Source: Desulfurococcales archaeon
GTDB lineage: Archaea > Thermoproteota > Thermoprotei_A > Sulfolobales > NBVN01
Reading direction: 5' to 3'
Assembly (NCBI GenBank): GCA_015523295.1
Contig: WAKQ01000017.1
Coordinates: 62,001-126,000, forward strand
DNA: 64,000 nt
Part shown: piece after piece, positions 1-2,712 of the stretch
Numbering within the stretch: position 1 is the first letter of the stretch
Layout of the letters: every line of letters begins with the position of its first letter
Made by a program: the position numbers and the translations under genes
The notes under the pieces: generated by a model
Seen by the model: the letters and a program-made list of their open reading frames with translations, nothing else
The model's database searches: none
What the model was told of the DNA's origin: nothing

Positions 1-2712
1 TCTCCTAGCCGCTTCTGCTAACTGAGGGATTGGATATTTAGCCACACTTATTACATCATCTAGAAACCTTACTGCTACTCTAATATCATTAGCTAAACTA
101 ATCCAATCTACGGTCGAAAAGCCGTTCTCTTCGATTACATACTTCTCTAAGTTAATGCTCCCTAAATTACAGGACTCCCACTCAAGCAACGGCTCTTCTC
201 CACAGTTATGATTGATAATCCCGTTGGCCACGTAATTATGAGTCAAAGGAACTGTAAAATCGTAGAAGTTAACTAAACCTACGTCAACTACTTTTATTAC
301 CGTAGCCCAAGGGCTCCCCATTTCATAGCTTGCTGAAGTGAGCCTCTCCATTTTACTAATATCTTCAAAACCTATTAGATGTTTGAAGATCTCTTTACTG
401 TAATCCTCTACTACCAACTCGTAATAGCCTGTACTACCATCATATTTCCACTCATCCTCATGCCTTTCAAAAATTGCTGATGAGATTCCGAATTGTGTTA
501 AAATTACTTGTATCTCTTTGAGCAGGTGTGGAGAAGGACTAGTAAGCTTTATCCTACCCTCACCATCCACATAACCCCCAGCTGTGAAGATCCCCCTAAG
601 AAATGCTAGTAAGCTTTTTGGAGCCATTTTGAATACTAGATCAGGGAGCCTGTCCCGGGAACCTCCCTCAAAATAATCATTAACTAGCTCTAGAACACTG
701 TTGTAGACTCTTGTCCCCCTACTATACCTTACCTTGATCTTATGTTTCGACCTACTAAGTAAATATGTGTGAGATAGAGGATTACCTCCTAATTTTACAA
801 TACCTCTCCTAACCCTTTCTTCGGCCGCAGAACCTTTTTCCCTGAAATACCATGCGACATACTCTCCATTTATAGTGCCTGCCCCGTAAATCCATCCGAG
901 AGCAAAAGCTACATCATTATCGATCTCATTGCCATTATCAATAATTCCTTCAGTGAAGGCTGGGTGAATCCTACCTAAAAGGATCTTGTCCCCTGCTTTT
1001 AGGTCTCCTGCAGCTTTCCATCCCTCCTTTGTTAAAAATTTGTGTTCAGATGTAACCGTGATTTCATATCCTTCCTTAGTTTCCACTCTTAGCCCTTGTT
1101 TCTTCCCTAAATACCAGACCCATGCCTCAGTCTTTTGCGGTACTAATAACTTAAGTTTTCTATTATGCTTGTTTCTGTAAACGGTTTCTCTACCCACGAC
1201 AGTGATTAAATTTGTTCGATAAGCGATAGGCTCTCCGCCCTCGCCCAGTAAATTCTCATCTATAGAGACCCCAACTGCGATTCCTTGCTTTTTAGCCTCC
1301 AAGAAGATATCTTTTGCCCTCAGCCATCCCCTAGGTGTCAAAACTAGAGTATCTTCAGCCACACAGGGGTTAGTAGCATTAATCTTTCCAAGATACCAAG
1401 TAGGATGACGTCTGTTGATTGTGTCGATGAACAACAGCCCAGGATCACCGCCTTCCCATGCGGCTTTAGTTATCTCATCAAAAACCTCAGCAGGGTCTAT
1501 CCATTTTACAATAGCATTTTCAGCCTCTGCTATGGCTAGTGCTTCATCCCAAGTAATAATTAAAGAATCCTCTAGCGATATAGAGCCGCCCTTTTCTTCC
1601 AGTTCTTTGATTATGAATTCTTGAACCCAGTCCTCGCTCATGTAATGCCTTGACCATACAATACCGTACTTCCTAGAGTTGGCTGACTTATCAACGGAAG
1701 TTTTCCTAGGATTAATTAGAGGTACTTCTTTACCCTCAGCGATGGCTTTCATAAAGTAATCATATATACCCACAGATATGTTGAAGTTCTGAAGCAAGCG
1801 ATCTTTCATCTCACCTGTTTTAGATCTTATGAACTTCATAATATCAGGATGCCATATGTGCATTACTCCCATATTAGCTCCTCTTCTTCTACCTCCTTGC
1901 TTTATCACATCAGTATTCACGTCAAATATCCTCATAAATGAAAGTGGACCTGAAGCAACCCCTCCTGTAGATAGGACTACGTCGCCCTCAGGCCTTAACT
2001 CGCTGAAGTCAAAACCACATCCCCCACCTTGCTGAAATACTATCGCCTGAGTCCTCACGGAATCATATATTCCGTCATTATTCTCAGTAGTTATTGCATC
2101 CCTGACAGGTATGACAAAACAGGCCGAAAGAATCCCTAGCTTTGTACCCGCATTAAATAATGTAGGGGAGTTAGGAATAAACCTTCTAGAAGCCATCAAT
2201 TTTAGGAACTCTTCAGTCCAGAAATCCCTTTTTTCTGGAGATTCAGCCAAAGCTATGTTATGAGCAACTCTGTGAAGTAACTGCCTAGGCGTTTCGGTGA
2301 CCTTACCTGTCTCATGATTTTTTATGAGATATCTCTGATACAACACTCTTAAAGCTGGATAAGTAAAACCCATATCCACTGGGTCGAAGCCCTTCCAGTT
2401 ATTCTTGCCATACACTTCATTGTATATTCTCGAAAGGACATAGACTTTAGCGGCTTTTTCCAACCCGGGGTTAGAAACCAGCCTACTTACGAAGGCTTTT
2501 TCGACTAGATCTGATAATTCACTACTCTTAATCTCTTTATAACCACCTTCTATAATATCATTAATTATATCATCGACAAACTTCTCTATATCATCTTCTA
2601 CCCCAGAGGTTGTAAAAGCTAACTCAATAGATTTTTTAAGCTTAAGTAAATCAAAGGATTCCCTTCTACCATCCTTTTTGATTACCCGTAGCTTAGAGAG
2701 TTTTCTCATCAT
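1..2712 (-). CDS. nrdJ: Adenosylcobalamin-dependent (class II) ribonucleoside-diphosphate reductase, partial (C-terminus off window), interrupted by an intein
   Basis: Minus-strand reading frame from ATG at 2712/2709 ([30 protein letters not shown]...) with RNR motifs [35 protein letters not shown] and INATNPC...[15 protein letters not shown]; frame stays open to position 1. Confidence 0.93.
205..1365 (-). mobile_element. In-frame intein (387 aa) in the ribonucleotide reductase, at NP^C...HN^CGEEPLL
   Basis: Block [21 protein letters not shown]; block [31 protein letters not shown]; block [23 protein letters not shown] followed by +1 Cys; degenerate DOD motifs [10 protein letters not shown] and [12 protein letters not shown]. 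Confidence 0.93.

Follow-up and report, generated by a model that had tools for sequence, protein, structure and literature searches.

Full-length inteins with a dead endonuclease are already well known, among them yeast VMA alleles, fungal PRP8 inteins and the crystal structure of PhoVMA. The yeast VMA and fungal PRP8 inteins form allelic series that run from active through inactive and mini-inteins to empty sites, in which loss of Asp and domain-specific relaxation were taken as signs of inactivity (PMC1508164). Their host genes are eukaryotic and several of the VMA alleles have been measured as inactive (PMC1508164), unlike the intein described here, which lies in the ribonucleotide reductase (RNR) gene nrdJ at the start of a 64,000-nucleotide window (the whole stretch of DNA analyzed). 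The genome of the window is referred to below as G000, and two relatives from the same genus as G001 and G002.

In Pyrococcus horikoshii, the PhoVMA intein (PDB 7QST) is missing both Asps, has a low pI, and shows no binding or cutting of its site; cutting was regained once active-site segments were grafted in (PMC8966425). It resembles the G000 intein in being archaeal and full length, with a LAGLIDADG domain that keeps its fold but not its active-site Asps, and in having an active allele, TliVMA, at its site. PhoVMA is a top fold match to the G000 intein; it occupies another host gene and site (VMA-b), is 19% identical, and was assayed in vitro. PI-PfuI, the RNR intein of P. furiosus (PDB 1DQ3), likewise combines HINT and LAGLIDADG parts in an RNR, but it is larger (454 amino acids), 17% identical, and solved as a homing endonuclease; the likeness seen is one of architecture.

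The closest relation by site is the intein contained in the NCBIfam model PRK08332 (NF006207) of vitamin B12-dependent RNR, which describes the same host protein. Residues 1-387 of the G000 intein align end to end with positions 860-1241 of this model (E 1e-72), and the insertion site is therefore homologous; we take the intein in the model to be probably allele RIR1-b. A paper on an nrdJ allelic series in Thermoproteota was not found in the literature searched, most subscription journals being outside it.

The nrdJ gene is on the minus strand and is already open at the start of the window; in the genome contig its reading frame runs for 1,268 codons with no break. Pfam recognizes ATP cone, RNR all-alpha and RNR barrel domains, interrupted by Intein_splicing and LAGLIDADG_3. 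The N-extein (positions 1366-2712, minus strand) encodes a class II, B12-dependent NrdJ with an ATP cone and ends in KINATNP. The C-extein (1-201, minus strand) runs past the window edge (contig C17 of G000, locus L003). Its first residue, the +1 Cys (202-204, minus strand), aligns with Cys322 of Thermotoga maritima NrdJ (1XJE/1XJK), as judged by aligning the intein-free protein of G002 with the T. maritima class II RNR and counting position 322 on the alignment. We take the NrdJ Cys aligned with C322 to be the carrier of the thiyl radical, and the unspliced precursor should therefore be inactive. Neither a second nrdJ copy nor an anaerobic nrdD was found in the G000 genome, which is 77% complete.

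The intein itself, CVAEDT...NGIINHN followed by Cys, spans 205-1365 on the minus strand and has 387 codons (Pfam, NCBIfam and alignment), exactly as an earlier note on this DNA had placed it. The N-terminal part of the HINT splicing domain (residues 1-146; 928-1365, minus strand; boundary from the alignment with G001) begins with the nucleophile Cys1 (1363-1365), the sole Cys of the intein, and carries the TxxH of block B as TSEH (1042-1053). The C-terminal part (residues 353-387; 205-309, minus strand) includes blocks F/G (205-264) and ends in His-Asn, and the NCBIfam models intein_Nterm and intein_Cterm matched at the two ends. All splicing residues are thus present as the earlier note had read them, with Cys1, TxxH, terminal His-Asn and a +1 Cys, in frame in the host, as in a class 1 type intein. 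A segment LGEGGEPxAY in the N-terminal splicing region, at about 1210-1260 of the window, is conserved in most inteins of the close family and is retained even in the G032 mini-intein described below.

Between the two splicing parts lies a LAGLIDADG homing endonuclease domain (residues 147-352; 310-927, minus strand), with the partition boundary placed by eye on G001. Its fold is kept, with two LAGLIDADG helices in an alpha-beta-beta-alpha-beta-beta-alpha arrangement (Pfam LAGLIDADG_3, AF2 model, Foldseek). The AF2 model of the intein, made with a 16-row alignment, has a pLDDT of 89.1 and a pTM of 0.90, and the best PDB fold matches found by Foldseek are the TliVMA, PI-PfuI and PhoVMA inteins, with PI-SceI and I-DmoI lower. 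The acid that ends each helix in an active LAGLIDADG enzyme is missing. In motif 1 (871-900, minus strand), codon GCA at 880-882 gives Ala162 at the end of helix 150-162, and in motif 2 (568-603, minus strand), codon GGG at 577-579 gives Gly263 at the end of helix 249-263. Alignment with the allelic inteins puts both residues exactly in the two catalytic Asp columns, with no acid in either for G000, and so bears out the proposal that both catalytic acids are lost. Judged from the model, the domain has the LAGLIDADG endonuclease fold but not the catalytic chemistry.

Neighboring alleles use GAT or GAC at the acid codons, and G000 differs from these by two bases at each; two separate two-base differences make sequencing error in a single metagenome-assembled genome (MAG) unlikely. 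An artefact was also rejected on the grounds that the full reading frame is open and that alleles are present in many genomes. The frame was further said to be undamaged. It is indeed open for all 1,268 codons, but the endonuclease is otherwise damaged: of 64 further positions at which all alleles with both acids agree, 16 are changed in G000, whereas those alleles, each left out in turn, are changed at 0-7 of 66-73 such positions. Nor does the open frame show that the endonuclease died recently, since any frameshift or stop codon would disable the RNR as well.

Alleles at the same nrdJ site were gathered by searches of relatives, order and phylum and by one scan of GTDB genomes, each comparison resting on one MAG per species; allele states are written as motif 1/motif 2. 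The GTDB query was an alignment of D/D alleles only, which inflates the proportion of D/D alleles, and we make no claim about frequency. Five phylum-level matches whose site pattern did not parse (G319, G324, G243, G270 and G507) were left out of all counts. The set comprises 37 distinct full-length inteins and one mini-intein of 163 amino acids (G032), all at the NP|C site. Nineteen of the 37 are D/D. Six have lost one acid: N/D in G119, G226 and L081, D/N in G348 and L088, and D/R in G012. Another 11 have lost both: A/G in G000; N/N in G003, G028, G125 and G323; N/S in G136 and G127; and, one each, A/S (G025), R/L (G402), G/G (G294) and G/C (G317). The remaining one, G129, is E/S with a heavily decayed endonuclease domain, and in G032 this domain is gone entirely with all splicing residues kept. 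Asn is by far the commonest substitute for the catalytic Asp and is carried by five of the six single-acid alleles, which suggests, as read from these sequences, that D-to-N may be the usual first inactivating step.

A comparison of empty and occupied alleles in relatives, proposed earlier, finds empty, D/D and dead alleles within a single genus. G002 has an uninterrupted host protein and an empty site flanked as TNP^CGEQP (L036), and the G001 intein (JALWQN010000067.1, Desulfurococcales archaeon), at the same site, is D/D and 66% identical to that of G000 over its full length. The site is uninterrupted in most genomes with an nrdJ match among the relatives searched.

Some members of the series have peculiarities of their own. 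G012 has two nrdJ-like genes (L009 on contig C5 and L032 on C76), each with an intein at NP|C, one D/R and the other decayed further. The same-site inteins L020 (G039, contig C24), L115 (G287) and L116 (G241) end in Ser-Leu-Asp before the +1 Cys, and not in His-Asn; both of their endonuclease acids are present. A search of viral contigs with the G001 intein as query found no relative, and phage records gave distant RNR inteins only, at about 24% identity.

The two acid columns were left out of the alignment for the intein tree, which joins G000 and G001 as sisters with support of 100/100; dead alleles appear as tips scattered among the D/D ones; the D/D label changes 13 times by parsimony, with at least 11 changes forced by well-supported branches. 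The exteins of G000 and G001 are 72.5% identical and their splicing domains 72.9%, a match that indicates vertical, shared descent. The inteins of G185 and G003, at 60-69% identity, are far closer than their exteins at 40%, which is the mark of horizontal transfer.

With the intein topology kept fixed, the tip lengths for the endonuclease are 0.656 in G000 and 0.151 in G001, so that the endonuclease of G001 evolves about four times slower. The corresponding lengths are 0.201 and 0.177 for the splicing part and, on a separate extein tree, 0.281 and 0.235 for the exteins. At the level of these sequences, the acceleration on the G000 branch is confined to the endonuclease part; the splicing part and the exteins are not accelerated. 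Among 26 close alleles, the median ratio of endonuclease to splicing tip length is 1.70 for dead and 0.84 for D/D alleles (one-sided Mann-Whitney P of 0.0004, indicative only, as the tips share some history). Synonymous sites between G000 and G001 are saturated (pS 0.88), and hence no dN/dS estimate dates the loss of the acids.

Changes in the dead endonucleases are unevenly distributed. At positions invariant among the D/D alleles, 12 of 156 cells are changed in the LAGLIDADG helices and 157 of 612 elsewhere in the endonuclease; the two Asps are changed in 19 of 24 cells, partly by definition, as dead means that an Asp is lost. The comparison of helix core with other positions does not suffer from this circularity, and it suggests that selection may act against misfolding but not against loss of cutting. 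Both Asps are lost in seven of 12 dead alleles, against 2.6 expected (P 0.0035) from a background of all D/D-invariant endonuclease positions. Against the 19 freely changing positions the excess shrinks, with about 5.9 expected (the P of 0.13 was computed for eight, more than the seven observed), and selection for double loss is not claimed.

The G000 nrdJ intein is very probably in post-mobility decay, a stage of the homing cycle, with splicing probably kept up by the requirement for mature RNR. The homing cycle calls for active-type and empty alleles at the same site and for relaxation in the endonuclease and not in the splicing domain, and all of these were found. The sequences carry the two lost acids, the D/D sister, the empty congeneric site, the endonuclease-only acceleration and the intact splicing motifs; from them we infer that cleavage is lost and splicing retained, and what the cause was at the level of the population. 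An intein that spread horizontally by means of a functional LAGLIDADG endonuclease would have entered nrdJ at the codon before that of the catalytic Cys, and in the common ancestor of G000 and G001 it would still have had both acids. Fixation at this site, or a shortage of empty targets, may then have followed on the G000 lineage, and selection on cleavage would have lapsed; both metal-binding Asps would subsequently have been lost while other endonuclease residues drifted. Splicing would still be under selection, because only excision of the intein would give the precursor a working RNR active site, and selection holding the endonuclease domain foldable would account for the persistence of helix-core residues. 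The earlier note had also placed the intein in this phase, and its same-genus D/D sister and endonuclease-limited acceleration agree. That the intein is still needed for RNR maturation, as was also proposed, is supported by the intact splicing residues and by the lack of a second nrdJ or an nrdD among the 77% of the genome at hand.

So read, the G000 intein has reached a late and unremarkable point in the life cycle known for inteins and is, taken alone, a routine decayed homing endonuclease. Its value lies in the allelic series, in which empty, D/D, single-loss, double-loss and mini-intein states stand side by side at one nrdJ codon across Thermoproteota, so that one can measure, in many independent replicates, in what order, how fast and in which domains decay proceeds during the homing cycle.

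It is possible, though rather unlikely, that the endonuclease is dead as a nuclease and kept since splicing depends on it as a scaffold, in a mutualism of endonuclease and HINT domain. The domain retains its full length and a well-predicted fold, its helix-core residues are conserved in dead alleles, and such dependence is reported for the M. jannaschii TFIIB intein, as cited in PMC7765530 and PMC8966425. The G000 endonuclease branch, however, is strongly accelerated, and the absence of the domain from G032, with all splicing residues in place, together with the heavy decay in G129, means that this intein family as a whole does not depend on the scaffold. We regard as less probable still a stronger form, in which the acid-less endonuclease would be selected in the clade as a folded scaffold assisting or timing RNR splicing, a stable state and not a mere stage of decay.

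The earlier note also raised the idea that the intein persists at the RNR active-site Cys as a conditional splicing switch that responds to temperature or redox state. Since the insertion falls immediately ahead of the residue that matches C322, splicing could in principle gate RNR activity. The idea nevertheless found no support and seems improbable: with Cys1 as the sole Cys and Thr at -3, the known disulfide traps, whether internal or through -3, are excluded; the intein is patchily distributed, the site being empty in a congener and in most relatives searched; and dead alleles do not form lasting clades, unlike what would be expected of a useful switch.

It is very improbable that the domain has been repurposed to bind DNA without cutting it, in the manner of the transcription factor WhiA. 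The fold is kept and WhiA is also among the Foldseek matches, but the net charge of the endonuclease part, 0 to +10 across all D/D alleles, has drifted to -1 in G000, the branch is accelerated, and no dead sublineage has spread. Equally hard to credit is continued activity through other acids (D/E) near the motifs, as the acidic residues at +4 and +6 after motif 2 occur in D/D alleles too (VDNDG, VDSDK) and so are not replacements, no acid lies near motif 1, and mutation or natural loss of the Asps goes with inactivity in characterized inteins (PMC8966425, PMC1508164).

The nrdJ intein has company in the same genome. Further inteins were found at loci L118, L120, L121, L122 and L125 (contigs C19, C4, C22, C20 and C10), mostly in secretion-type ATPases, a RadA/KaiC-like protein and a helicase, with one ATPase reading frame holding two. 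On inspection of the translations, all of these look like mini-inteins or seem to have relic endonucleases, so that loss of mobility is not peculiar to nrdJ in G000; only one intein, in a Tes-like (tetraether lipid synthase) radical SAM protein (L002/L004, contig C10, about 64.6-66.0 kb), keeps both acids, in the motifs IADGH and NGDGY. Its +1 Cys provides the third Cys in the CX3CX2C motif, and an intein-containing Tes model is already in NCBIfam (NF045703).
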